Origin: an uncultured Bacteroidota bacterium
GTDB lineage: Bacteria; Bacteroidota; Bacteroidia; Chitinophagales; Chitinophagaceae
DNA length: 12,464 nt
Assembly: GCA_946479615.1 (NCBI GenBank)
Contig: CAMLGR010000137.1
Span: 1 to 12,464, forward strand
Direction of reading: 5' to 3'
This document shows positions 1 through 10,432 of the stretch, one piece after another. How positions within the stretch are numbered: position 1 is the stretch's first letter; each line of letters opens with the position of its first letter. The notes under the pieces were generated by a model that did not search any database, was not told the DNA's origin, and saw only the letters and a list, made by a program, of their open reading frames with translations. A program made the translations under genes and the position numbers.

Positions 1-540
1 TATGTACCGGATGATGAAAAGAAAGCGATATTATCCTACGTACTGGAAAACAAAACCGGTCAACAAAAAGAATTTACAGGAGCTAAAGAACCGGCAGATA
101 CATTCCGGAATCTTCCTTATAATATGGTGGGTTATTATAAATTCCTCAGTCCTGAAGGGTATCCTGCGATTGGCCCACCCTGGGGAACCTTAACGGCGAT
201 TAATCTTAACACCGGCGAACATATCTGGAAAACACCATTGGGAGAATATCCTGAATTAAAAGCAAAGGGCATTCCAGCTACCGGCACAGAAAATTATGGA
301 AGTTCGGTGGTAACAGCAGGTGGCATTTTATTTATTGCTGCTGCCAGTGATGGCAAGCTAAGAGCTTTCAATAAACGAACAGGTAAATTATTATGGGAAT
401 ATGATCTGCCTGCACCCGGGTTTGCCACCCCATCTGTGTACCAGGTAAACGGGAAGCAATACCTTGTCATTGCCTGCGGCGGCGGGAAATTAGGAACGAG
501 GTCGGGAGATTCGTTTGTAGCGTTTACAGTAGAGAATTAA
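1..540 (+). CDS. PQQ-dependent (quinoprotein) dehydrogenase, C-terminal part
   Basis: The frame is open from the first base to the TAA at 538-540, so this is the last 179 residues of a gene that begins outside the window. The sequence is typical of the final blades of an eight-bladed PQQ beta-propeller: a PPWGTLTAINLNTGEHIWK stretch at residues 59-77, a GTENYGSS segment, then FNKRTGKLLWEYDLP and a closing GGGKLGTRSGD loop. The tryptophan-docking blade repeats (AINLNTGEHIWK, AFNKRTGKLLWE) are clear. The first ~20 residues (DDEKKAILSYVLE) look like the last helix of a cytochrome c domain, which in Bacteroidota members is often inserted in this protein. Such enzymes oxidise sugars or alcohols in the periplasm and pass electrons to the respiratory chain. 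The substrate cannot be told from this fragment. The stop codon is followed directly by a heptad repeat tract and a convergent gene. Confidence 0.9.
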   Translation, partial: YVPDDEKKAILSYVLENKTGQQKEFTGAKEPADTFRNLPYNMVGYYKFLSPEGYPAIGPPWGTLTAINLNTGEHIWKTPLGEYPELKAKGIPATGTENYGSSVVTAGGILFIAAASDGKLRAFNKRTGKLLWEYDLPAPGFATPSVYQVNGKQYLVIACGGGKLGTRSGDSFVAFTVEN

Positions 541-645
541 TTAAGAATTAAGAATGATGAATGATGAATACCGGAAAACTGATCATTCGTTATTGACTAT
601 TCATCATTCTTCATTCATAATTCATAATTCTTAATCACCATTCTC
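541..645. repeat. Heptad-phased inverted repeat, convergent junction (site A)
   Basis: The whole 105-nt gap between two stop codons can be cut into fifteen 7-nt units. Left units are of the types TTAAGAA (twice) and TGATGAA (twice). Right units are TCATTCT, TCATTCA, TAATTCA and TAATTCT. A perfect 12-bp stem pairs 559-570 (GAATGATGAATA) with 598-609, with a 27-nt loop, and looser pairing continues outward. It probably folds as a long hairpin in transcripts from either side and may act as a bidirectional terminator. No GC-rich stem followed by a T-run is present. Confidence 0.8.
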
Positions 646-2370
646 CTACAGTTTCATATCACCGATGATCGCCTTGATCTTCGCATCCAGTTCATCGTTC
701 ACTTTATCAAAGTTGGCGGCGCTATTTAATTTGGAATGAATGCTGAAATAGAATTTGATCTTGGGTTCAGTACCGCTTGGACGCGCCGATATGGTACTCC
801 CATCTGCCAGGATGAATTGCAAGACATTTGATTTGGGCAATTCTATCTTCCATTCCTTTCCTGTTTTCAGGTCCTTGCCTTTTTGCAGTTCATAATCCAG
901 CAATTGAGCAACATCCGATCCATTGATTGTTTTTGGCGGATTGCTGCGATAACTTTCCATCATCGCAGCAATTTGCTGCTGGCCATCCATTCCTTTTTTG
1001 GTAATGGAAATAAGATTTTCTTTATAGAATCCATACTGGATATACAGTTCCACCAATTTATCAAACAAGGTTTTGCCTTTCTGTTTTTCATAGGCAGCCA
1101 TTTCGCAAAGTAAGGCCACGGCGCTGACCGCATCTTTATCACGGATCTTATCCCCGATCATCAATCCAAAACTTTCTTCACCTCCTATTACATAGTTTTC
1201 TTTGCCTTCTTTTTCACGGATCATTTCAGCGATCCATTTAAATCCTGTCAGTACATTATAACAGGATACATTGTTGCCTTTCGCGATCTGGTTGATCATA
1301 CCCGTGGTTACAATGGTAGTAATCACCATATCGTTCGGTTGTGCCACGCCCTTTGTCTTTCTTGCTTCCATTACATAGTTAAAAGCAAGCACGGCAGTCT
1401 GGTTCCCATTCATCAACACCCATTCACCATGATTATTCTTAATACCGATCCCTACCCTGTCGGCATCCGGGTCGGTTCCCAGTAAGATGTCGGCATCGAG
1501 CTCCTTTGCATTTTTCAGGCCGATGCTCATGGTTTCCTTTTCTTCAGGGTTCGGATAACTGACCGTGGGAAAGTTACCATTGGGTTCGCTTTGTTCTTTT
1601 ACGATATGTACATTGGTAAATCCAAAACGCTTCAGTACTTCCGGCACCAGTGTAATACCCGTGCCATGAATCGGCGTGTACACGATCTTCAGGTCATGCT
1701 GTTTGGCAATGATATCGGGATATACGCTCAGGCTTTTCACCATCGCCATATAGGCTTCATCTATCTCTTTGCCAATGATCGTAATATTTTTTTCGCCGCC
1801 TGACCATTTTACATCATCCACGCTGGCGATCTTTTCCACCTCTTTGATCACGTTTTTATCGTGTGGCGGCACCAGTTGCCCGCCATCGTTCCAATAGGCT
1901 TTATAACCGTTGTATTCTTTCGGATTATGCGAAGCGGTACAAACCACTCCGCCCTGGCATTTCAGATGGCGGATAGCGAATGATAATTCAGGAGTAGGAC
2001 GAAGGCTTTCAAAAAGAAATACCTTAATGCCATTTGCGCCAAATACATTGGCGGTCGTCTCCGCAAAGAAACGGCTGTTATTGCGGCTATCATGTGCTAT
2101 TGCTACACGAACTTCCTGGTCCGGGAATGATTGTTTGAGATAATTGGCATAACCCTGTGTGGCCATTCCCACGGTATATTTATTCATGCGGTTAGTGCCT
2201 ACGCCCATGATTCCGCGAAGACCACCGGTACCAAACTCCAGGTTGCGGTAAAAAGCATCCGCCAGTTCATCCGGCTTTTCTTTCTGCAATCTCTTTATCT
2301 CATCTTTTGTAGCCTGGTCAAAACTTCCGTTAAGCCATGTATTTACTTTATCCTGAATCGCAGCATCCAT
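646..2370 (-). CDS. Phosphoglucomutase/phosphomannomutase (alpha-D-phosphohexomutase family)
   Basis: This 574-residue cytoplasmic enzyme interconverts hexose 1- and 6-phosphates through a bisphosphorylated intermediate, supplying glycolysis, glycogen and nucleotide-sugar synthesis. All four active-site elements of the family are present: the phosphoserine loop TASHNP with Ser147, the Mg-binding loop DPDADR (Asp300, 302, 304), the sugar-specificity loop GGEESFG (396-402) and the phosphate-binding loop RPSGTEPK (530-537). Length matches the bacterial PgcA/ManB-like phospho-sugar mutase group of about 570-600 residues. The ATG at 2370 is chosen because the N-terminus (helix, then LEFGTGGLRG at 44-53) begins as expected for the family. 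There is no strong Shine-Dalgarno sequence, as is usual in this phylum. It is transcribed alone, divergent from the DUF2279 gene and convergent with the PQQ dehydrogenase. Glucose versus mannose preference is not resolvable here. Confidence 0.96.
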   Translation of the reverse strand: MDAAIQDKVNTWLNGSFDQATKDEIKRLQKEKPDELADAFYRNLEFGTGGLRGIMGVGTNRMNKYTVGMATQGYANYLKQSFPDQEVRVAIAHDSRNNSRFFAETTANVFGANGIKVFLFESLRPTPELSFAIRHLKCQGGVVCTASHNPKEYNGYKAYWNDGGQLVPPHDKNVIKEVEKIASVDDVKWSGGEKNITIIGKEIDEAYMAMVKSLSVYPDIIAKQHDLKIVYTPIHGTGITLVPEVLKRFGFTNVHIVKEQSEPNGNFPTVSYPNPEEKETMSIGLKNAKELDADILLGTDPDADRVGIGIKNNHGEWVLMNGNQTAVLAFNYVMEARKTKGVAQPNDMVITTIVTTGMINQIAKGNNVSCYNVLTGFKWIAEMIREKEGKENYVIGGEESFGLMIGDKIRDKDAVSAVALLCEMAAYEKQKGKTLFDKLVELYIQYGFYKENLISITKKGMDGQQQIAAMMESYRSNPPKTINGSDVAQLLDYELQKGKDLKTGKEWKIELPKSNVLQFILADGSTISARPSGTEPKIKFYFSIHSKLNSAANFDKVNDELDAKIKAIIGDMKL

Positions 2371-2401
2371 AAAATCAAAATTTAACGTTAATTATGAGCC
2401 T

Positions 2402-2429
2402 GAAAGTTATTGAATTTTACCTTTTCAAA
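2402..2429 (-). promoter_or_regulatory. Candidate promoter of the phosphohexomutase gene
   Basis: On the minus strand a TTTG (2429-2426) is followed after 16 nt by TAACTTTC (2409-2402), close to the Bacteroidota TTTG/TAnnTTTG pattern. It would give a leader of about 25 nt before the ATG at 2370. The last base of the -7 box and the slightly short spacing are deviations. Confidence 0.3.
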
Positions 2430-2449
2430 CTGAAAAGAAGAGCAAAACG

Positions 2450-2457
2450 TATTTTTG
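2450..2457 (+). promoter_or_regulatory. Candidate -7 box of the DUF2279 gene
   Basis: TATTTTTG fits the Bacteroidota -7 consensus TAnnTTTG and lies 22 nt before the GTG at 2480. The only candidate -33 element is a weak TTTTC about 24 nt upstream. Confidence 0.3.
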
Positions 2458-2479
2458 TTACAAATAATCTTAGCTGCCA

Positions 2480-3646
2480 GTGTCCTTTTTTACAAAGCCT
2501 TCTACTTATTTATGGTGTCCAAAGATCTTTTTCGTACTGCTGATGCTATGTACAGGCGCTGATTCATTTGCCCAGGATTCAATTCCCCCCGGAATAAAGA
2601 CGTATATAACAAGCCATTCAAAAAGCCCTCCTGGTTACTATTATTCCAGCGAATACCTGGTACTGAAACAAAGTGAACTGGCTTCTTTCAGTCATAATTA
2701 TTTTACAGGTGATACGACGGTTTCCGAAGAAACAAAAGCTATTCAACAGCAGCAGCGCGAATTCCTCGACCGGCATAGCAAAGATTCGATTCTCCCAAAA
2801 AAGAATACCAGCCGCTTGTGGCTGATCGGTGGTTTGAATACGATCGGGTATGGCGGCACACTGATCATTCTCAATAATACCTGGTATAAAAATTATGCCC
2901 ATACTTCTTTCCAGACATTTGACGACCATAAAGAATGGTTGCAGGTGGATAAACTGGGTCATGCCTGGACTGCTTATAATACAGGGAAAGCCTCTGCCGC
3001 TATGTGGGAATGGGCAGGATTGCCGCATAAGAAAGCAGTGCTGGTTGGCGGGTTGAGTGGTTTTGCTTTTTTAACAGGCATTGAATTTCTCGACGCGCAT
3101 TCTGCCAAATGGGGCTGGAGCTGGAGTGATATTGGCGCTAATATAACAGGATCGGGGCTGTTTATGGGACAGGAGTTTCTATGGAACGAACAACGGATCC
3201 AGTATAAATTCTCCTTTCATAAGAATACCTATGGCGATCCGATGCTGGAAAAACGCGCAGATGACCTGTTTGGGAAAACCTGGTATGAAAGAATGCTGAA
3301 GGATTATAATGCACAGGCTTATTGGTTCAGCGTTAATATCAAATCATTTTTTCCTTCCGGTAACTGGCCGGCCTGGTTGAATATTGCTGTAGGATACGGC
3401 GCAGATGGTATGTACGGCGGATTTGAAAATAAATGGACAGACAACCTGGGCAATGATATAACGAGATATGATATCAACAGAACAAGACAGTTCTACCTCT
3501 CTCCTGATATTGATTTTACAAAGATCAAAACCAAAAGCAAATTCCTGAAAACCGCTTTCTCTTTTTTGAATTCTTTTAAATGCCCTGCGCCGGCTCTGAT
3601 GCTGAACCCGAAGGGGAAATGGAAGATGTATGCGGTGTATTTTTAA
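2480..3646 (+). CDS. Exported DUF2279 family protein
   Basis: A 388-residue protein with an N-terminal signal peptide: a hydrophobic core at residues 16-25 (IFFVLLMLCT) and a likely cleavage after DSFA (residue 31). The core holds the DUF2279 hallmarks: DKLGHAWTAYNTGK (157-170), a GGLSGFAFLTGIEFLDAHSAKWGWS-type block at 190-214 and DIGANITGSGLF (217-228). The C-terminal part (YLSPDIDFTKI near 339-349, then a PAPALML motif) is the usual Bacteroidota extension of the family. DKxGH-type proteins are distantly related to the YfiM lipoprotein group. The function is unknown and an envelope location is inferred from the signal peptide. The GTG start is chosen because it is the only in-frame start that gives a full signal peptide; the next in-frame ATG falls inside the hydrophobic segment. 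Its stop is followed at once by a heptad palindrome. Confidence 0.88.
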   Translation: MSFFTKPSTYLWCPKIFFVLLMLCTGADSFAQDSIPPGIKTYITSHSKSPPGYYYSSEYLVLKQSELASFSHNYFTGDTTVSEETKAIQQQQREFLDRHSKDSILPKKNTSRLWLIGGLNTIGYGGTLIILNNTWYKNYAHTSFQTFDDHKEWLQVDKLGHAWTAYNTGKASAAMWEWAGLPHKKAVLVGGLSGFAFLTGIEFLDAHSAKWGWSWSDIGANITGSGLFMGQEFLWNEQRIQYKFSFHKNTYGDPMLEKRADDLFGKTWYERMLKDYNAQAYWFSVNIKSFFPSGNWPAWLNIAVGYGADGMYGGFENKWTDNLGNDITRYDINRTRQFYLSPDIDFTKIKTKSKFLKTAFSFLNSFKCPAPALMLNPKGKWKMYAVYF

Positions 3647-3709
3647 TTCTAATTCATAATTCTTAATTCATAATTATGAATTAAGAATTATGAATTATGA
3701 ATTATGAAT
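3647..3709. repeat. Heptad tract forming a 48-bp perfect palindrome (site B)
   Basis: Nine consecutive 7-nt units run from the base after the stop codon. The left units are TTCTAAT, TCATAAT and TCTTAAT; the right units are TATGAAT and TAAGAAT. Positions 3650-3697 are a perfect 48-bp palindrome with 24-bp arms and its centre between 3673 and 3674. I checked every pair outward; the first mismatch is 3649/3698. It could extrude as a cruciform or fold into a loop-less RNA hairpin, and probably ends transcription from both convergent genes. Confidence 0.9.
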
Positions 3710-3720
3710 GGGAGTATAAT

Positions 3721-3741
3721 CTAACACCTAACATCTAAACC
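3721..3741. repeat. Second, unrelated heptad run (CTAACAC type) next to a stop codon
   Basis: Three units, CTAACAC, CTAACAT and CTAAACC, run up to the stop of the phosphoribosyltransferase gene. The stop itself (CTA at 3742-3744 on the plus strand, TAG on the coding strand) is in phase with the CTA that begins each unit. There is no inverted partner nearby. Confidence 0.55.
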
Positions 3742-4242
3742 CTATTTCATATACGCTCCTATCACATGCTCGTCATCCACTTCCACATAAATATGTTCCT
3801 GTAAAGTAGTAGCGATGGAAATGCCTACATAATCAGGACGCACAGGAAATGAATTATGACTGCGCTCGATCAGTACCAGGGTTTGAATTTTTTTGGGGTA
3901 AAATGCCAGGAAAGGTTTTAAAGCATATAACAATGTCTTACCGCTATTGGCAACATCATCGATAACGATCACTACTTTTTCGTTGAAATCGATTTCTTTA
4001 CTAAGCGTAATCTCGCCCGGCTTTTTTTTATCGAGGGAGATGCTGATCAGTTCGGTAGGAACGGGACTTATTTCCGCGATCAGTTTTTGAATATTTTTTG
4101 CCACGATGCTTCCGCTTTCACGGATACCGGCCAAAATGAGCAATTTTTCTTCGGAATTATTCTCGACAACCTGGAGAGCCATTCGTCGGAGTTTTTTCCC
4201 GGCCACAGACTGGTCGAGAATGTAATTTTTCGCAGCAGACAT
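3742..4242 (-). CDS. PyrR-like phosphoribosyltransferase
   Basis: A 166-residue type I phosphoribosyltransferase. The PRPP-binding loop VVIVIDDVANSGKTL (90-104) has the paired acidic residues Asp95-Asp96. An AGIRESGSIVA segment (38-48) corresponds to the pyrophosphate loop region, and IERSHNSFPVRPDYVG (125-140) matches the PyrR-type LIDRGHRELPIRxDYVG motif. PyrR proteins bind pyr mRNA or act as uracil phosphoribosyltransferases, but no pyrimidine gene is nearby, so the role here is uncertain. The ATG at 4242 is chosen because the family-like sequence starts there. The frame stays open to an upstream ATG at 4647, but that extension lies antisense inside the neighbouring Fe-S protein gene and has no family resemblance. 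The gene is divergent from 4313-5638 with a 70-nt gap. Confidence 0.85.
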   Translation of the reverse strand: MSAAKNYILDQSVAGKKLRRMALQVVENNSEEKLLILAGIRESGSIVAKNIQKLIAEISPVPTELISISLDKKKPGEITLSKEIDFNEKVVIVIDDVANSGKTLLYALKPFLAFYPKKIQTLVLIERSHNSFPVRPDYVGISIATTLQEHIYVEVDDEHVIGAYMK

Positions 4243-4251
4243 AATGAGGAT

Positions 4252-4281
4252 AAAATTTAATCTTTTAATGGCTTGAACAAA
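4252..4281 (-). promoter_or_regulatory. Candidate promoter of the phosphoribosyltransferase gene
   Basis: On the minus strand TTTG (4281-4278), an 18-nt spacer and TAAATTTT (4259-4252) approximate the Bacteroidota TTTG/TAnnTTTG promoter with only the last base off. The leader would be very short, ending at the ATG at 4242. Confidence 0.35.
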
Positions 4282-4312
4282 CCGTAAATTAGCAATTGTA
4301 TTCAAAACCTCT

Positions 4313-5638
4313 ATGCAAATAGCACAACAAATTTTATTTATTCTGATCGGCGGGCTTGCCATCGGCCTGTTTACCTTTAAAATAAAACAGATCGTTCGTA
4401 ATATCCGCCTCGGGCGGGACGAAGAAATAAGGGATAACCCCCAACTCCGCTGGAAAAATGTGCTGTTGCTGGCTTTCGGGCAAAAGAAAATGTTTCGCAA
4501 CCCCCTGGTGGCGGTCCTGCATTTTTTTGTGTATGCCGGGTTTATTATCATCAATATTGAAGTACTGGAAATTGTACTCGATGGCATTTTCGGCACCCAT
4601 CGTTTGTTTGCGGCACCGTTGGGTAGTTTGTACACATTCCTGATCAATTCCTTTGAGGTGCTGGCCCTGCTGGTGTTATTGGGCTGTGCTATCTTTTTTA
4701 TCCGCCGGAATGTTATCCGTTTGAAACGCTTTATCAGTAAAGATCTCGACGGATGGCCACGCAGCGATGCGAATTATATCCTGATCACCGAGATCGTGCT
4801 GATGACGCTGTTCCTGTTCCTGAATGCCAGCGATACCTTATTACAGGCAAGAGGGGTTGAACATTACTCTTCCCATCTTACCGGTAATTTTGTTTTTTCC
4901 CAATACCTGCATCCTGTATTAAATGGTGTCAGCAACAGCGGACTTGAAATGATCGAACGCGGCTGCTGGTGGCTGCATATCGCCGGTATTTTTGTTTTTT
5001 TAAATTACCTCCCTTATTCCAAGCATCTTCATATTATCCTGGCTTTTCCCAATGCCTATTATGCGCGGCTGAAGCCGATGGGTGAAATGGAAAATATGCT
5101 ATCTGTACAAAATGAGGTCCTGTATGCGATGCAACCCGAACTGGCCCCTGTGGCGGCAGCTACGGATGCACACAAAAAATTCGGGGCCAAAGATGTAACA
5201 GATCTTAGCTGGAAAAATGTACTGGATGCGTATAGCTGTACAGAATGCGGTCGTTGTACGGCTGCCTGCCCGGCGAATATTACCGGTAAATTATTATCTC
5301 CCCGCAAGATCATGATGGATACCCGTGACCGCGCAGAAGCGATCGGGAAGAATATCAATGCCAATAAAGAATTTAAAGAAGATGGCAAAACACTTTTGCA
5401 CGATTATATTTCGGTAGAAGAATTACGTGCCTGCACTACCTGCAATGCCTGTGTACAGGAATGCCCTGTCAGTATCAATCCGCTCGATATCATTTTACAG
5501 CTCCGCCGCTATCTTGTCATGGAAGAAAGCAATGCCCCGCAGGAATGGAATGGTATGTTCAGCAATGTAGAAAACAACTTTGCTCCCTGGAAGTTTTCGC
5601 CGGATGAGCGCGATAAATGGGCGGAAGAGATGAAATAA
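4313..5638 (+). CDS. Membrane-bound protein with NarI-like domain and two [4Fe-4S] motifs (HdrC/FadF-like)
   Basis: A 441-residue integral membrane electron-transfer protein. Hydrophobic segments lie at about 5-24, 65-86, 107-129, 155-171 and 219-242. His70, His222, His238 and His240 lie in or beside them and could bind heme b as in NarI-type domains. The C-terminal soluble part carries two ferredoxin motifs, CTECGRCTAACP (Cys309, 312, 315, 319) and CTTCNACVQECP (Cys374, 377, 380, 384), each followed by Pro. It therefore matches the membrane and ferredoxin half of FadF/EMO-type ETF:menaquinone oxidoreductases; the CCG half is encoded at 8348-9127. The inferred role is passing electrons from a soluble donor, possibly ETF from fatty-acid oxidation, to the quinone pool. 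The ATG at 4313 starts just before the first membrane segment. A weak -7-like TAAATTAG lies at 4285-4292. The donor partner is not visible in this window. Confidence 0.85.
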   Translation: MQIAQQILFILIGGLAIGLFTFKIKQIVRNIRLGRDEEIRDNPQLRWKNVLLLAFGQKKMFRNPLVAVLHFFVYAGFIIINIEVLEIVLDGIFGTHRLFAAPLGSLYTFLINSFEVLALLVLLGCAIFFIRRNVIRLKRFISKDLDGWPRSDANYILITEIVLMTLFLFLNASDTLLQARGVEHYSSHLTGNFVFSQYLHPVLNGVSNSGLEMIERGCWWLHIAGIFVFLNYLPYSKHLHIILAFPNAYYARLKPMGEMENMLSVQNEVLYAMQPELAPVAAATDAHKKFGAKDVTDLSWKNVLDAYSCTECGRCTAACPANITGKLLSPRKIMMDTRDRAEAIGKNINANKEFKEDGKTLLHDYISVEELRACTTCNACVQECPVSINPLDIILQLRRYLVMEESNAPQEWNGMFSNVENNFAPWKFSPDERDKWAEEMK

Positions 5639-5775
5639 GAAATGAAAAATAAGGAATAAGGAATGAGAAAATAAATGTAAAATGTAGAACCGCAAAATGT
5701 AAAATATAAAAGGGGTTTCCGATTAACAGACACCCCTTTCTCATTTCTAATTCCTTATTTCTTATTCCTTATTTT
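5636..5775. repeat. Twenty-unit heptad tract with nested inverted repeats (site C)
   Basis: From the TAA at 5636 to the base before the opposite stop at 5776, the 140 nt divide into twenty 7-nt units. On the left they are TAAGGAA, TGAGAAA and TAAAATG types. On the right they are TTATTCC, TTATTTC, TCATTTC and TAATTCC types. Perfect arms pair 5646-5660 with 5761-5775 (15 bp) and 5662-5670 with 5737-5745 (9 bp), enclosing a GC-richer hairpin. The tract includes the stop codon of the upstream gene and abuts the stop of the convergent DinB gene. Confidence 0.85.
5709..5739. terminator. Hairpin terminator inside heptad site C
   Basis: AAAGGGGT (5709-5716) pairs with ACCCCTTT (5732-5739) around a 15-nt loop. 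The stem is A-flanked on one side and T-flanked on the other, so it could serve both convergent genes, although the downstream T-run is interrupted by C. Confidence 0.55.
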
Positions 5776-6270
5776 CTATCTTTCATCCGCACTCGGTCCA
5801 TACATTCCCGGCACCGGCACGTCCAGCAAACGCAGATAGACCGATAACTGCCCGCGGTGATGATAAAGATGGCTGAAGGCCCAGCCACGCAGCGCCGCTT
5901 TTTTAGGTGTTTGAAACGCCACCTGCTCTCCTCTTTTTACTGTCCATAATTTCTCCAGGTCCGCATCGGATGCTTTTTCAAGCGCAGCAATACTATTATC
6001 AAGATTCGTTTGATAAATGCTTATCAGTTCTTCCTGTGAAGCCGCTGTACGCGGGTTGAAAGGATGCGCCAAAAAATCATACACATCATTGGCAAGCATC
6101 TCGGTGATCCAATGAGGAACTTCGGCGATATGTGTAGCCAACCTGCCTATTGACATTGATTTTGCATGCGGTTTCCAGTTTTTTTGATCCAGCGGTACTT
6201 TTTCAAGTATTTTTTTGGTAAGTGTCGCTTCGTGTTTCAGTTCAGCAATGAATGCTTCTTTAATGGCCAT
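5776..6270 (-). CDS. DinB/YfiT-family metal-dependent protein
   Basis: A 164-residue four-helix-bundle protein of the DinB superfamily. The metal-binding histidine triad is recognisable as His47 in GRLATHI and His134 and His138 in the C-terminal HLYHHRGQ helix (HxxxH). The PGMYGPS end near 154-160 is common in Bacteroidota members. Relatives include bacillithiol and mycothiol S-transferases, but many members have no known substrate and I cannot assign one. It starts with ATG 9 nt after the stop of the LysE-type transporter gene, so it is probably the last gene of a minus-strand operon with that gene and the ATP-grasp gene. Its TAG stop directly borders heptad site C. Confidence 0.88.
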   Translation of the reverse strand: MAIKEAFIAELKHEATLTKKILEKVPLDQKNWKPHAKSMSIGRLATHIAEVPHWITEMLANDVYDFLAHPFNPRTAASQEELISIYQTNLDNSIAALEKASDADLEKLWTVKRGEQVAFQTPKKAALRGWAFSHLYHHRGQLSVYLRLLDVPVPGMYGPSADER

Positions 6271-6279
6271 ACTTATTTT

Positions 6280-7011
6280 TTAAGTGGATGATGAATCTTT
6301 GGATTTATGTTTATCAAAACGATCTACCTGGTGACCGATACGATCCGCCAGTTCTTCGGGATGTTCTATCTGGTGAGCTGCGTCTTTTTTTTTGAATATA
6401 CGCCATAATTGTATGATCGCAGTAATGGCAAAAATGCCTCCTATCACCCAATTCAAAACGTGTTGGTTGTTACTGATCTTGCTGGCGATCAGCAATCCAC
6501 CGAAGATGAAGACACAGTTGCCGATAAAAGTGCCCAGGCCGATGCCAATGATATAGGTATTATAATGATCCTTTCGCGGAAGCAATACTTTTTTTGTAAA
6601 TAACACCGTGCTCCAGCCAAACCAGAAGGGAATCTGCACCGGGTTAACGGCACTCATCACCAAACCCAGTACAAATCTTGGCAGCGTACTGCTCAAAATG
6701 ATATTCTTTTGTACCGAAGGATGCATGGCTGCATAGAAACTGGAGATCGCAAGCGCCAGTACGATCCCGAGCGTGACCCATTCCAGCGCCCGGAAGATCT
6801 TTTCCTGTTTTCTCACCCAATCCATAGCCACCAGCGAAAGCCGTACATAAATGATCTCTGTTAATAAAGAACCTGCTGAAAATAACATCGCTGGAGTGAT
6901 CCCATCGCTGATGGATATTTGCATCGCAGCAATATTCAGGGTTCCCAATGGCAATGAACCAAGGAAACTAACGAGCATGCCGGTAAAAAAAATGCGGATC
7001 AATGGATGCAT
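6280..7011 (-). CDS. LysE/RhtB-type transporter
   Basis: A 243-residue membrane protein with about six hydrophobic segments (approximately 8-30, 38-60, 75-95, 108-128, 150-176 and 186-204) and a charged cytoplasmic tail rich in Lys, Asp and Ser. The N-terminal SLPLGTLN segment (19-26) and the mid-protein SAVNPVQIPFW (120-130) match the small-residue and Asn-Pro motifs of LysE exporters of amino acids and related solutes. The substrate is unknown. The ATG at 7011 is chosen because the family sequence begins there. An in-frame ATG at 7098 would add 29 residues, but it overlaps the end of the ATP-grasp gene and the extra residues are translated heptad repeat. It sits 70 nt after the ATP-grasp stop and 9 nt before the DinB start. 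Confidence 0.82.
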   Translation of the reverse strand: MHPLIRIFFTGMLVSFLGSLPLGTLNIAAMQISISDGITPAMLFSAGSLLTEIIYVRLSLVAMDWVRKQEKIFRALEWVTLGIVLALAISSFYAAMHPSVQKNIILSSTLPRFVLGLVMSAVNPVQIPFWFGWSTVLFTKKVLLPRKDHYNTYIIGIGLGTFIGNCVFIFGGLLIASKISNNQHVLNWVIGGIFAITAIIQLWRIFKKKDAAHQIEHPEELADRIGHQVDRFDKHKSKDSSST

Positions 7012-7042
7012 GAGTGCGAAAATAGTATGTTCCGGCGAAAGA

Positions 7043-7077
7043 GAGAGCAGTTGGCAATGGGCAGTTGGCAGTTGCAC
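7043..7077. repeat. Short heptad tract in a tandem gene gap (site D)
   Basis: Five units, GAGAGCA, GTTGGCA, ATGGGCA, GTTGGCA and GTTGCAC, lie in phase between the ATP-grasp stop and the LysE start. There is no inverted partner. On neither strand do the core units contain a stop triplet, which keeps the upstream reading frame open and invites a false N-terminal extension of the transporter. Confidence 0.75.
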
Positions 7078-7081
7078 ACTA

Positions 7082-8122
7082 TTAATCAAATCTTTCAAGC
7101 ATCTTAAAATGCCTGTGCGATTCCTGCAGGTATTTCCAGCCTTTGGTGAAGGACCAGTAAGGCGTTCCGTTCTGATGATTGTAGCGGCTGATACGGTATA
7201 ATGCTTTCCAGTGCTGAAGGATCACGCCATACGCCTGCCAGATACTCATGCCGCAATCGTAAATATGATTAGGCTCTGCCCCGCAACCATTGAATTCAAG
7301 AATGAGGAAGTTCTTTCCCTGTTTCAGGTCTTCGATCGAACTGGTCTTGATATCATAGCGGCCATAATAAAATTTATCCGTGTAATGACTAAGGTTATCG
7401 AATACTTTCAGCAGGTCGGTATCTATTTCCTTATGGAGATTGGTGAAATGAGCGCCGCGGTTGTGATTGCCGGCATAAGACAGGTAAAATATTTCACCCT
7501 CCGGTATCACCCTTGTAAAACGGTGACCATGCCGGTGCTCCATTTCTTCGAGACGGTGTTTGGCGCGCGGATGTATTTCGATCAGTTGTTTCAGTGTAGC
7601 AATGCCATCACCGGTCACGTGCAGCAATTCTTTATGAATAAACCCGCTGACAATGCCGGTTGGCTGGTCAGGATAGCGATAATAGAATACGCTCACTTCT
7701 ACCGGCAATTCAACAAGATCCTGTACAATATATTCTACGGGAATGCGCTCGTGGTATTTGATAAGCTGCTCTTCGCTGTCGATCTTCCGGAAGAGGATCC
7801 CTTTCATACCGATATCGGGTTTTACAATAAAGGGATAGGAAAATCCCGCCTGCTGTATTTTCTGTTTTACTTCATCATAAGGCCAGTCATGCATGATATA
7901 AATGGTACGTGGCACCAGTTGAGGAGGCAACTGATCATACATTTCCTTTTTGCCTTCTCCTTCAAAACCGCCGAATGTAATAGTTGGATTGGATGAACTG
8001 AAAAACCAGAAAGAACCGCTTCGCAGGCAATACCAGAACCATACAAAGCTGATGGGAAAATAGAGTACATAAAAATTCCACAGTTCCCAGTTCGTGAATT
8101 TTTGAAAAAATCGTTTAATCAT
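7082..8122 (-). CDS. Membrane-anchored ATP-grasp family ligase
   Basis: A 346-residue protein. Residues 16-42 (aromatic-rich, beginning LYFPISF at 20) form a likely membrane anchor, followed by SSSNPTITFGGF. The ATP-grasp fold is recognised from PFIVKPDIGMKG (97-108, nucleotide-binding Lys101), the hinge-like EYIVQDLVE (130-138), GRYDIK (254-259) and the metal-binding LEFNGCGAEP (275-284, Glu276 and Asn278). The overall pattern is closest to D-Ala-D-Ala ligase/RimK-like enzymes, which join a carboxylate to an amine through an acyl-phosphate. The substrate is unknown, and true D-Ala-D-Ala ligases have no such anchor. The ATG at 8122 is preferred over a TTG at 8134, which adds only MSAV and overlaps the candidate -7 box. 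It is the first gene of the probable ATP-grasp-LysE-DinB operon. Confidence 0.82.
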   Translation of the reverse strand: MIKRFFQKFTNWELWNFYVLYFPISFVWFWYCLRSGSFWFFSSSNPTITFGGFEGEGKKEMYDQLPPQLVPRTIYIMHDWPYDEVKQKIQQAGFSYPFIVKPDIGMKGILFRKIDSEEQLIKYHERIPVEYIVQDLVELPVEVSVFYYRYPDQPTGIVSGFIHKELLHVTGDGIATLKQLIEIHPRAKHRLEEMEHRHGHRFTRVIPEGEIFYLSYAGNHNRGAHFTNLHKEIDTDLLKVFDNLSHYTDKFYYGRYDIKTSSIEDLKQGKNFLILEFNGCGAEPNHIYDCGMSIWQAYGVILQHWKALYRISRYNHQNGTPYWSFTKGWKYLQESHRHFKMLERFD

Positions 8123-8131
8123 GACTGCTGA

Positions 8132-8139
8132 CAAAAGTA
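8132..8139 (-). promoter_or_regulatory. Candidate -7 box of the ATP-grasp operon
   Basis: TACTTTTG on the minus strand is an exact TAnnTTTG match ending 9 nt before the ATG at 8122. The leader would be very short, and no convincing -33 TTG is present. Confidence 0.4.
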
Positions 8140-8181
8140 ATGAAGGAATGTTTAAAATAGTAAGGTTTCTTCCATAGTGAG

Positions 8182-8303
8182 GCAGTCTTGCAGCCGGTAG
8201 TCCGCAACCGTCGTTCTGCTATTAGTTATTTTACTATCGTGCCGAACTCATAAATCTGCATGCTTGCTGTTTGACGACTGCGGACTGCCGGCTGCAAGAC
8301 TGC
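8182..8303. repeat. GC-rich heptad inverted repeat between divergent genes (site E)
   Basis: Two 32-nt arms, 8182-8213 and 8272-8303, are reverse complements at 28 of 32 positions and are separated by 58 nt. Each arm is built of 7-nt units such as GTCTTGC, AGTCCGC, ACTGCGG, ACTGCCG and GACTGCG. Unlike the other large tracts it is GC-rich and lies upstream of both flanking genes rather than at gene ends. Confidence 0.85.
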
Positions 8304-8323
8304 GAACTATAAATGATATTGAT

Positions 8324-8331
8324 TAGATTTG
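8324..8331 (+). promoter_or_regulatory. Candidate -7 box of the CCG-domain gene
   Basis: TAGATTTG is an exact TAnnTTTG match 16 nt before the ATG at 8348. The expected -33 position falls at the end of the right arm of the inverted repeat, where no TTG is seen. Confidence 0.4.
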
Positions 8332-8347
8332 GTGCAAATTTGAAACC

Positions 8348-9127
8348 ATGGTTCCTACCGTTGCTGAATTAGCCGCCAATGGTCAATCACCCGAAATACT
8401 TTTTTGGGTGGGTTGTGCCGGTAGTTTTGATCAGCGAGCACAAAAGATCACCAGGGCTTTTGCAACAATACTCACTAAAGTAGGCATCAACTATGCCATA
8501 CTGGGCAAGGAAGAAATGTGCACGGGCGACCCTGTTCGCCGCGCGGGAAATGAATTTATGTTCCAGATGATGGCCTACCAGAATATCCAGGTTTTAAATA
8601 ATTATGGTATTAAAAAAATAGTCACCGCCTGCCCGCATTGTTTTAATATCATAAAGAATGAATATCCCGCTTTGGGAGGTTCTTACGAAGTGATACATCA
8701 TACGGTATTATTGCAGCAACTGATCGATGAAGGAAAGATCAAAATGAAAGAAGGTGGTTATTTCAAAGGAAAACGGATCACTTATCATGATAGCTGCTAT
8801 CTCGGCCGTGCGAATAATATTTACGAAGCTCCGCGCCAGGTATTGGAAGTACTGGATGCCGAACTGGTGGAAATGAAACGCTGCCGGAGTAAAGGCTTAT
8901 GCTGTGGCGCCGGTGGTGCGCAGATGTTTAAAGAAGAAGAAAAAGGTACGACACGTGTAAATTTCGAACGGAGTGCAGAAGCGATTGAAACCGGATCCGA
9001 TTTTATTGCAGCCGCCTGCCCTTTTTGTAATACCATGCTGACGGATGGCGTAAAAAATGCAGAGAAAGAAGAGAGCGTTAAAGTAATGGATATCGCAGAA
9101 CTGGTGGCTTTGTCGATGGCTGATTGA
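8348..9127 (+). CDS. CCG-domain (Fe-S)-binding protein, HdrB/FadF-like
   Basis: A 259-residue soluble protein with two cysteine-rich (CCG, formerly DUF224) domains, as in HdrB, LutA and the C-terminal half of FadF/EMO proteins. The first uses Cys23, Cys58 (in EMCTGDPVRR, with Met where the second Cys of CC would be) and Cys95-Cys98 (CPHC). The second is complete: Cys150 (HDSC), Cys185-186 (CCGAGG) and Cys224-Cys227 (CPFC). Complete CCG sites hold non-cubane Fe-S clusters. It is the expected partner of the membrane protein at 4313-5638 in electron transfer to quinone. In related genomes, as I recall, the two genes are adjacent; here three opposite-strand genes lie between them. The ATG at 8348 matches the family N-terminus (VPTVAELAA). 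Confidence 0.9.
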   Translation: MVPTVAELAANGQSPEILFWVGCAGSFDQRAQKITRAFATILTKVGINYAILGKEEMCTGDPVRRAGNEFMFQMMAYQNIQVLNNYGIKKIVTACPHCFNIIKNEYPALGGSYEVIHHTVLLQQLIDEGKIKMKEGGYFKGKRITYHDSCYLGRANNIYEAPRQVLEVLDAELVEMKRCRSKGLCCGAGGAQMFKEEEKGTTRVNFERSAEAIETGSDFIAAACPFCNTMLTDGVKNAEKEESVKVMDIAELVALSMAD

Positions 9128-9134
9128 TTTTTTC

Positions 9135-9219
9135 TTACCGCATAGGATCATAGTACAGATAGGTTCACATAGGATTTTCTATGTGTGTATTTCTATGTTT
9201 CTATGTGCCTGTGTGGTAA
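9135..9219. repeat. Imperfect inverted repeat with about 8-nt units, convergent junction (site F)
   Basis: The gap holds repeated CATAGG/CATAGT words on the left and TTTCTATG words on the right. TTACC at 9135-9139 answers GGTAA at 9215-9219, and CACATAG at 9166-9172 pairs with CTATGTG at 9179-9185 around a 6-nt loop. The spacing is a mixture of 7 and 8 nt rather than strictly 7. It could form a terminator-like hairpin between the two convergent genes. Confidence 0.65.
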
Positions 9220-9223
9220 AATC

Positions 9224-9760
9224 TCAGGATTCAGAAAAGAACGGTACTATATTCCTTCGCAGGTTCAGCGAGTTCTGCACTTCGATCGCTTCTTTTAATT
9301 TTCCTTTCGGAATGGGTATCCTCAATTCATCAAAGGTCATACCGTTACCGGTTTCCCATTCGTAGGAGATCTCGAGCACATTGACCGTACTGTATTCCTT
9401 TACATCTACTTTACGAAGCAACTTTTCACGGCTGCGGAAAACAACCTGCTTTCCATTGGTGATCGCCATATAATCGGTGATATGCACTTCCGGTATTTTC
9501 TTGCTCTTCCAGCGGACCCTCCACATATTGAAATAGTATTTCGCCGCACCAAAAGCAATGGCAATGCTGCCGCTGATTGCAAAAGCAGGCAACCACCAAC
9601 CATGTCTTGCAAAGCGCAGGATCAATAATCCAAGCGCCCATACAAATAATAACTGGATGATAATGCCCGTTTCCCTTTTCTTACTTTCCACCAGCATAAA
9701 CTCTTCCCATTCAGAAACAGAGTAATACCAATGCACCAATGTTTCTTTCTCTTCCTCCAT
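9224..9760 (-). CDS. Small membrane protein of unknown function, two membrane helices
   Basis: A 178-residue protein with a short acidic N-terminus (MEEEKET), two adjacent hydrophobic segments at about 32-50 and 55-76, a basic stretch (WRVRWKSKK, 80-88) and a soluble C-terminal domain of about 90 residues rich in beta-strand-like sequence (HITDYMAITNGKQVVFRS, 93-110). This layout resembles YcxB/PH-like small membrane proteins, but I do not recognise a specific family and give no function. The ATG at 9760 is chosen because the upstream part of the open frame, to 9988, runs antisense through the conserved gene at 9797-10315. It is divergent from that gene with only 36 nt between the starts. Confidence 0.7.
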   Translation of the reverse strand: MEEEKETLVHWYYSVSEWEEFMLVESKKRETGIIIQLLFVWALGLLILRFARHGWWLPAFAISGSIAIAFGAAKYYFNMWRVRWKSKKIPEVHITDYMAITNGKQVVFRSREKLLRKVDVKEYSTVNVLEISYEWETGNGMTFDELRIPIPKGKLKEAIEVQNSLNLRRNIVPFFSES

Positions 9761-9796
9761 TATTATAAAGTCGGTTTTCCTGCGTAATTTAGCAGT

Positions 9797-10315
9797 ATGA
9801 ACCTTGAATACAAATACCTTCTTCACGGTAATTTCGCCGGCAGTTCCAGGGTGTGGATCTACCAGGCCAATCGTATTTTTTCCATGAGTGAAGCATTGGA
9901 TATAGAAGAGATGCTGACTGCATTTACTACACAATGGAAAAGTCATGGCACACCTGTAATGGGAAATGCTTACCTGTTTTTTGGACAATTCATTATACTG
10001 ATGGCGGATGAAACAGCAAGTGGCGTCAGCGGTTGCAGTACCGATAGTTCAGTAAGACTGATCAAAGAGATCGAACAACGTTTTAATGTGAATATGTTTG
10101 ACCGTACCAGCCTGGCTTTCGTGGTAAAAGACAAGGTGCAGTTATTACCGATCTCCCAATTGCAGTATGCTTTCAACAATCAATTTATTACTGACGATAC
10201 GTTATACTTCAATAACCTCGTGCAAACAAAAGACGAATTGGAAACGCAGTGGATTGTTCCGGTGAAAGATAGCTGGCTGGCGACGAGAATTGAAAAAACC
10301 ATTCATAATTCATAA
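9797..10315 (+). CDS. Conserved Bacteroidota protein of unknown function (often mislabelled ABC transporter ATPase)
   Basis: A 172-residue soluble protein. It resembles a widespread Bacteroidota family with an RVWIYQANR start (18-26), a central MADETASGVSGCSTDSSV block (69-86) containing Cys80, a RFNVNMFDRT segment (95-104) and a DDTLYFNNLVQTKDELE region (133-149). Public entries of this family are often named ABC transporter ATPase, but no Walker A, Walker B or ABC signature is present here, so that name is unsupported. The last residues IHNS and the TAA stop are encoded by heptad units ATTCATA, so the C-terminus has been formed by the repeat. In other Bacteroidota I recall this gene near the Fe-S pair, which fits its place here. 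The ATG at 9797 is the first in frame; a start nearer residue 18 is possible. Confidence 0.8.
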   Translation: MNLEYKYLLHGNFAGSSRVWIYQANRIFSMSEALDIEEMLTAFTTQWKSHGTPVMGNAYLFFGQFIILMADETASGVSGCSTDSSVRLIKEIEQRFNVNMFDRTSLAFVVKDKVQLLPISQLQYAFNNQFITDDTLYFNNLVQTKDELETQWIVPVKDSWLATRIEKTIHNS

Positions 10316-10432
10316 TTATGAATTTAAAATTATGAATGGATGACTATACCAGTAAGTTCGTGCTTCAACAAACTTCTGCAGCCCATTCATAATTTATAAC
10401 TCATAATTCTTAATTCCCAATTCTCAATTTCT
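10301..10432. repeat. Heptad inverted repeat overlapping two gene ends (site G)
   Basis: Left units are ATTCATA (twice) and ATTATGA (twice), with an 18-bp palindrome at 10307-10324. Right units, read on the minus strand, are AGAAATT, GAGAATT, GGGAATT, AAGAATT, ATAAATT and ATGAATG. An 11-bp stem pairs ATTATGAATGG (10329-10339) with 10383-10393. The tract includes the stop and last codons of the plus-strand gene and about seven codons, stop included, of the receptor gene. Confidence 0.85.

Follow-up and report, generated by a model that had tools for sequence, protein, structure and literature searches.

The 12,464-nt window analysed here (contig CAMLGR010000137.1, from an uncultured Bacteroidota bacterium whose closest relatives are Chitinophagaceae) carries tracts of degenerate tandem 7-nt units at its gene junctions. 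These tracts would form the two arms of “module-armed elements”: non-coding intergenic stretches, about 60-280 bp long, in which arrays of tandem 7- or 8-nt modules putatively stand to the left and right of a core that is often a hairpin. This intergenic element class is real, widespread and fast-evolving. At two orthologous sites in relatives the elements interchange with canonical terminators; termination itself and a mobilising enzyme are predicted. Judging from sequence, we give roughly even chances to the view that they are foldback-like or miniature inverted-repeat transposable element (MITE)-like intergenic elements acting as transcript-end signals. A role at gene ends (termination) is the best-supported explanation, as a prediction.

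Interchange with canonical terminators at gene ends

The flanks of two element copies in the Chitinophaga genome G052, picked for the element present there and not for terminator status, were traced into seven sister species. One site was convergent in all eight species; the other was co-directional, following the 3' end of one gene and preceding the next (clear in 5 of 8 gene calls). Eleven of the 16 places had a canonical hairpin with a T-run and 5 had an array element, with both or neither at no place: 4 arrays and 4 terminators at the convergent site, 1 array and 7 terminators at the co-directional one. A syntenic block was also compared in six Chitinophaga genomes (about 150 kb) and, over 40 kb, in a seventh. 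Its convergent junctions 5 and 31 had, depending on the species, a lone terminator or array elements; at both junctions of G052 the array arms flanked the terminator hairpin, the two occurring together. Array elements therefore occupy the terminator position of gene 3' ends at the two traced sites and at these two Chitinophaga junctions. Over Chitinophaga convergent gaps of at least 30 nt, terminators were found in 2 of 15 gaps with arrays vs. 47 of 86 others (p=0.004, from pooled and non-independent orthologues). At the window's own convergent sites a terminator-like core was detected only at 5634-5780, the other four showing none at the scan threshold.

Arrays were present in 30 of 76 convergent, 65 of 282 co-directional and 12 of 99 divergent gaps of three sampled genomes (Terrimonas ferruginea, Niastella vici and Chitinophaga qingshengii), the genes here and throughout being longest-open-reading-frame calls whose convergent and divergent classes carry some error (miscalls in 3 of 16 loci checked). 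The enrichment at convergent junctions that the initial annotation had anticipated beyond the window was seen in two of these genomes and failed in C. qingshengii taken alone.

In the proposed mechanism, the elements would form the 3' ends of transcripts coming from either side, the punctuated hairpin halting the polymerase or capping the RNA; they may spread as non-autonomous foldback/MITE-like DNA through some enzyme, and their arms may grow by slippage of 7/8-nt units. The alternation with ordinary stop signals suggests an unusual, fast-changing gene ending.

A 7- or 8-nt ruler in the window and its relatives

Tracts of this kind were expected outside the window, and were found there. In the window and 80 relative loci (1.44 Mb), 44 of 46 period-7 arrays and all 15 of period 8 were intergenic, together with those of the multiples (23 of 26 for period 14, 5 of 5 for period 16); all remaining periods between 4 and 13 together contributed 8 intergenic arrays (periods 4, 9 and 12), and the shuffle control (one per sequence) gave one array across all periods. 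Intergenic arrays of periods 7 and 8 numbered 92 and 22 in T. ferruginea (359.5 kb), 23 and 9 in N. vici (200 kb), and 6 and 12 in C. qingshengii (200 kb), with zero at both periods in the shuffles of these genomes. One T. ferruginea array (G007:C5, 27601-27835) had a run of N inside it, suggesting that such arrays break assemblies. Occurrence was patchy: among the 59 loci that were 15 kb or longer, 23 had an array. In a phylum sample (20 genomes drawn from 61, 20 kb each), period-7 or -8 intergenic arrays were found in 6 genomes, all within the 14 of phosphoglucomutase identity of at least 44% (distant genomes, 0 of 6), and the shuffles gave 2 arrays at period 7 and 0 at period 8.

Within the window, lag-7 self-match (each site vs. 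1000 dinucleotide shuffles) was strong at 541-645 (z +8.4), 3647-3741 (+7.5) and 5639-5775 (+7.6), moderate at 7043-7081 (+4.0) and weak at 8135-8347 (+2.9) and 10316-10409 (+1.5; the wider span 10301-10432 contains two lag-7 segments). The remaining junction, 9128-9223, described at first as mixed 7/8, is not 7-phased, given its z of -1.5 at lag 7; it leans to 8 (lag 8, +2.3; lag 10, +2.8). For comparison, lag-7 z was +0.8 and -0.2 in two divergent gaps where no tract had been noted. The longest unbroken lag-7 segment was only 60 nt (3650-3709), at odds with a phase held over 20 units. Scored against 60 shuffles per site, inverted repeats were strong at 536-650, 3642-3741, 5634-5780, 8123-8347 and 10296-10432 (scores 20.5-25, shuffle maxima 10-13.5), weak at 9123-9228 (9.0 vs. 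a shuffle maximum of 10.0; RNA fold z -6.9) and absent at 7012-7081 (4.5 vs. a shuffle mean of 4.9). Most of the seven sites are thus inverted repeats, as first described, and each of the five convergent junctions does have an inverted or periodic tract. The units do not differ at every locus: the sites at 541, 3647 and 10301 (3 of the 5 convergent ones) have GAATTAT/GAATTAA/GAATGAT-type modules in common.

Composition of the modules

Nine families, with arrays taken without a motif condition, were profiled. In eight of them the module combined 4-6 fixed positions with 1-3 near-random ones. The T. ferruginea family TAAGTNN (49 arrays, 217 units) had five positions of 1.44-1.96 bits and two of 0.51 and 0.34, and its family SAATNGT (40 arrays, 235 units) two variable positions (0.84 and 0.27); in N. 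vici there was one variable position in GAAGTAN and two each in GATTTNGN and RGTTNCC, and the window family had three. The exception was GAATTAC of C. qingshengii (19 units), which had no variable column. The earlier idea that only period and architecture are constant was not supported, as units form families with fixed words and near-random positions, and many arrays have cores in common with other array gaps (T. ferruginea, N. vici) or are dispersed copies (Chitinophaga). At the variable positions, adjacent modules outside the window matched at 0.34-0.55 and modules of different arrays at 0.32-0.40; the values for the window family were 0.64 vs. 0.37.

Read inward, modules were C-poor (A 0.36, C 0.08, G 0.22, T 0.33; 253 arrays, 37 sequence sets), with G exceeding C in 124 of 148 arrays beside gene 3' ends and 82 of 105 beside 5' ends. 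A reading of the modules as stop codons in all frames was rejected: inward stops at 3' ends amounted to 0.77 per 7 nt vs. 0.66 after column shuffling, mostly an effect of composition. The rule of fixed plus free positions and the C-poor inward strand with G above C would also fit serial binding by a nucleic-acid-binding protein whose footprint is 7-8 nt (e.g. a cold-shock or RNA recognition motif protein), which would contact the fixed word of each module and use the free positions as spacing. We consider this very improbable, since a single protein would hardly recognise the dissimilar words of the several families found in the sampled genomes.

Dispersal in relatives

Element copies are dispersed in relatives of the window, and the element families differ between lineages. 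Matches to a 124-bp GAATTAC element of G052 numbered at least 52-100 per genome in six close Chitinophaga genomes, at least 77-119, and weaker, in G070, G064 and G037, 7 in G040 and none in N. vici and T. ferruginea (a near-palindromic copy may match on both strands). The matches listed fell at no fewer than 40 different places of G052, all of them covering 95 or more of the 124 bases, and at 26 or more places of G055. Loops were mostly common to the six close genomes and different in G064 (29 loci, two of them taken twice). With the arrays masked, 35 of 74 array gaps of T. ferruginea had a core in common with another gap, vs. 4 of 104 array-free gaps; in N. vici the counts were 11 of 45 vs. 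3 of 69. Many dispersed non-coding copies with inverted ends, the trait of MITE and foldback elements, were thus seen for the Chitinophaga GAATTAC element and not for the window's own families. PF01797 (Y1 transposase) matched once each in G052, G010 and G007 and four times in G001. Mobilisation by RAYT (REP-associated tyrosine transposase) was considered and found unsupported, the Y1 transposase being absent from two element-rich genomes. Rfam gave three weak eukaryotic-type matches (E 0.004-0.008), far under the gathering scores and therefore taken as chance.

Two-armed architecture and evolution of the arms

Arm pairing and the mixed-arm counts given below for T. ferruginea show the elements to be two-ended, with arms that are alike in most loci seen and unlike in T. 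ferruginea. Arms matched the reverse complement of the remainder of their own gap better than that of other gaps in the window (20.9 vs. 7.2; 6 arms), N. vici (14.8 vs. 7.0; 46), C. qingshengii (23.4 vs. 8.1; 19) and the other loci (15.2 vs. 6.2; 86), with no excess in T. ferruginea (8.5 vs. 8.7; 123). Duplex energy of own arms was -29.6 in N. vici (9 gaps) and -36.4 in C. qingshengii (6 gaps), vs. -13.3 and -15.8 with other gaps. Whole-gap fold z for gaps with and without arrays was -3.67 vs. -1.11 in N. vici and -9.23 (9 gaps) vs. -3.05 in C. qingshengii, and differed little in T. ferruginea (-1.94 vs. -1.45).

Own arms were no closer to each other than to the arms of other copies in G052 GAATTAC (0.806 vs. 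0.804, as high in 8062 of 20000 permutations; 23 rows representing 21 different places, two copies being entered twice) or in the N. vici families GAAGTNN (0.639 vs. 0.677, 8 gaps) and GATTT (0.644 vs. 0.706, 7 gaps). All 40 GAATTAC rows of several genomes gave 0.818 vs. 0.799 (118 of 20000), with species differences mixed in. In the Chitinophaga blocks, leaving aside 3 CAAAG elements, the own arm was the best match in 7 of 11 GATTT, 1 of 22 GAATTAC, 2 of 10 TTATTT and 2 of 6 other elements, so mirrored birth or conversion occurs in this GATTT 8-mer family. The hairpin correction advanced in the initial annotation is consistent with that one family and was rejected as a general rule, given the three arm-coupling tests above and the heterologous arms of T. 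ferruginea. Arm-to-arm mismatches were uneven across phases (123 in 49 elements for period 7; 105 in 37 for period 8). Our own reading of these data is that in some families the arms are mirrored at birth, after which free positions drift and words are retained.

Single elements showed further events. AATTCGT units were far more numerous in one arm at L235, a single-arm expansion; in the L153 junction element a block of 8-nt modules, about 66 nt long, was present three times in tandem; and at Chitinophaga junction 5 the CGCAAAGG-type palindrome arms of G039 and G048 seemed, by eye, to be one both-arm duplicated block apart.

A rival account, in line with the slippage plus hairpin correction suggested in the initial annotation, is in-place slippage to a 7-8-nt ruler from the replication machinery (Mrazek et al. 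2007, as cited by PMC4692102 and PMC4679880), with hairpin-templated correction keeping the arms alike. The sharp limit to periods 7 and 8, the L235 expansion and L153 triplication, and the mirrored arms of the GATTT 8-mer family agree with it, and the adjacent-module match in the window family fits slippage better. We nevertheless regard it as improbable: module differences are concentrated in fixed columns, where in most families adjacent modules are barely closer than modules of different arrays, arm coupling was absent in three tests, T. ferruginea arms are heterologous, and shared cores with dispersed copies need spread.

Evidence against the proposed termination role, and a neutral alternative

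Several results weigh against transcript-end signals spread as foldback elements. Among T. ferruginea gaps typed on both sides, 30 combined a TAAG-type with a SAATNGT-type arm, 7 had TAAG-type arms on both sides and none had two SAATNGT-type arms (16 more had a single typed side); random pairing reached 30 mixed gaps or more in 2 of 100,000 permutations. Own arms in this species also paired worse (-11.5) than with other gaps (-15.6; 38 gaps). With arms that are heterologous and pair worse, a long hairpin is not expected there, and a universal hairpin was ruled out for T. ferruginea, whose arms are mostly two different modules.

At gene ends, C. qingshengii alone showed no convergent enrichment (3 of 23 vs. 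3 of 25), and the arrays in divergent gaps lie where the flanking genes need no terminator. A GC-containing stem with a U-run was absent at all 5 array places of the two traced sites. Exclusion was not clear in the co-directional gaps of the Chitinophaga block (terminators in 3 of 27 with arrays vs. 44 of 247), and terminators and arrays were non-exclusive in convergent gaps of T. ferruginea (9 of 17 with arrays, 4 of 11 others) and N. vici (4 of 10 and 7 of 12). Canonical terminators at times stood directly before an array.

As to mobility, array-masked cores were shared by none of the 16 sampled array gaps of C. qingshengii (others 2 of 70) and none of 6 in the window, no consistent target-site duplication was seen in copy flanks inspected by eye, PF01797 was absent from the element-rich genomes G012 and G064, and no cognate transposase was found in a search confined to PF01797.

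Many of these points would suit neutral or selfish MITE/foldback-like elements that are dispersed and survive best at gene ends, with arms lacking a transcriptional role, convergent enrichment and interchange then reflecting the lack of promoters there. Dispersed copies and shared cores, copies in divergent and co-directional gaps, non-pairing T. ferruginea arms and arrays beside intact terminators all agree with this. It is harder to reconcile with the two traced sites, where arrays and terminators alternate one for one over all 16 places, or with words that stay fixed while other positions of the same modules are near-random, which suggests constraint. We take this alternative to be somewhat unlikely and retain transcript-end signalling as the explanation to be preferred.

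Turnover at orthologous junctions

A different module at an orthologous junction, which the initial annotation proposed to look for, was observed: at g7/g8 the modules, labelled by eye, differed among the window, L003/L005, L007 and L008. A junction compared in 30 Chitinophaga was 30 nt or shorter in 19 (the stop codons often overlapping), filled by an element (82-276 nt) in 10 and neither in 1, L160 being scored by eye and L180 having its next called gene on the other strand. Its fillings received five module labels, given by eye. On the gene tree, with weak forks left open, the fewest changes were 2 for filled/empty and 6 for module labels, and a GAATTAC element (L155) was nested within a group of GATTT elements.

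Features of the window

Coordinates are collected in Table 1. The region 536-650 folds into a stem of successive 5-6 bp helices, separated by a single mismatch every 7 nt; the other window stems are less regular, with 22 bp paired without a break at 3650-3709 (inverted-repeat score 25.0 vs. a shuffle maximum of 13.5). The inverted repeat at g8/g9 scored 23.5 vs. a shuffle maximum of 10.0, with no lag-7 segment at threshold.

Table 1. Array and hairpin features at the gene junctions of the window.
Feature	Position	Strand	Location	Evidence or remark
Left 7-nt array arm	539..569		Convergent junction g1/g2	Lag-7 segment score 19
Right array arm	591..635		Convergent junction g1/g2	Pairs with left arm 539..569
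7-nt array, itself a near-perfect inverted repeat	3650..3709		Convergent junction g3/g4	Lag-7 score 35.5
Left 7-nt array arm, AATAAGG-type	5634..5670		Convergent junction g5/g6	Lag-7 segment
Core hairpin and T-rich tail, intrinsic-terminator-like	5709..5739	minus	Between g5/g6 arms	Terminator scan, fold
Right 7-nt array arm	5737..5773		Convergent junction g5/g6	Lag-7 segment
Single GCAGTTG-type 7-nt array	7047..7074		Co-directional junction g7/g8	No inverted partner
Left arm of long inverted repeat, GACTGC-type words	8181..8206		Divergent junction g8/g9	
Right arm of long inverted repeat	8279..8303		Divergent junction g8/g9	
Hairpin and short 8-nt array (TTTCTATG)	9166..9215		Convergent junction g9/g10	8-nt segment 9190-9215
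Left 7-nt array arm (ATTCATA)	10301..10317		Overlaps g11 3' end	
Right 7-nt array arm	10385..10429		Convergent junction g11/g12	Runs into g12 3' end

A Pfam scan of 10 window proteins (frames 9224-9760 and 9797-10315 being left out) identified the end of a PQQ-type protein, phosphoglucomutase, DUF2279, a phosphoribosyltransferase, an Fe-S protein, DinB, LysE, one protein without a Pfam match, a CCG-domain protein and a TonB-type receptor. The DUF2279 protein, searched in 12 genomes, was best matched in G004, G001 and T. ferruginea (G007), with 68-71% identity. Two Fe-S/cysteine-rich genes (4313-5638 and 8348-9127), with three genes between them in the window, are neighbours in many relatives (e.g. 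L026, L033 and L036). Between the orthologues of g11 and g12, a tRNA-Gly (ccc) gene was present in 4 of 6 relatives scanned (L001, L003, L005 and L007); the window has an array element instead (10316-10409) and no tRNA. The equivalent junction also held a Y1 (IS200-like) transposase frame matching PF01797 in L001 (17939-18787) and a similar frame, judged by eye only, in L005 (17008-17802).

Comparison with known repeats

Eukaryotic foldback transposable elements have long inverted arms of short tandem subrepeats and are larger; the arm build is the same here and no kinship is demonstrated. Repetitive extragenic palindromic (REP) sequences are associated with the RAYT transposase. They are described as dispersed bacterial intergenic palindromes of 20-40 bp (PMC3733652), from which the present elements differ in that two element-rich genomes have no Y1 transposase gene. 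The BrickBuilt MITE of Porphyromonas gingivalis is also dispersed and intergenic, with a tandem 23-nt unit in mid-element and small inverted-repeat ends (Klein et al. 2015, PMC4596501); it shares with the elements studied here the phylum, dispersal, MITE-like character and tandem units, but here 7/8-nt units make up the arms.

Degenerate heptamer arrays are already in print for Xanthomonas, Nostoc and some Bacteroidetes. The intergenic Xanthomonas/Nostoc heptamers GGGAATC and GGGGA(T/C)T (GGGANTN), conserved at positions 1-4 and 6, often form inverted pairs (70 and 75 cases), occur at 16% of convergent vs. 7-8% of divergent gene pairs and were investigated as G-quadruplex formers (Rehm et al. 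2015, PMC4692102). The arrays here likewise have a 7-nt period and are degenerate and intergenic, the 8-nt families and the uniform GAATTAC deviating; unlike those heptamers as described, the nine consensuses (e.g. TAAGT, GAAGTA, GATTT, GAATTAC) have no run of three G, there are several families per genome, of 7 or 8 nt, and there is alternation with terminators at two sites. TAACTGA direct repeats are intergenic heptamer arrays of Beggiatoaceae, cyanobacteria and five Bacteroidetes, with a single heptamer lying chiefly upstream of start codons in the Beggiatoaceae genome described (MacGregor 2015, PMC4679880). Both they and the present arrays are intergenic heptamer arrays with members in Bacteroidota; relative to that account, two-armed elements and interchange with terminators are peculiar to the latter. 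The statement that no named Bacteroidota equivalent exists is in part contradicted by these repeats, and the literature searches made here, limited to openly licensed papers, gave no description of the present elements. No TAACTGA unit was among the arrays listed for the window; TAACTGA-type arrays were noted near 3446 and 4166 of L276, a low-GC genome of the phylum sample.

No single known family fits, as each fails at least one tested feature or is incomplete; the kin by kind are degenerate heptamer arrays and MITE-like palindromes. A broader, and in our view unlikely, possibility is that all belong to a general bacterial class of gene-end elements, signalling transcript ends in both directions and independently of a U-run. 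Their stems would consist of short helices interrupted at intervals of 7 or 8 nt, and their module sequence would turn over with ruler, polarity and position retained. The Xanthomonas, Nostoc and TAACTGA heptamers would then be further members, and not quadruplex or start-codon elements.

Significance

Arrays of this kind may disturb assembly and gene-end annotation in Bacteroidota. If the general view is true, the scattered “heptamer repeats” of several phyla would receive one architecture and one testable job, repeat elements could replace terminators between related species, and the question of why the unit is 7 nt would become testable through orthologous gene junctions.

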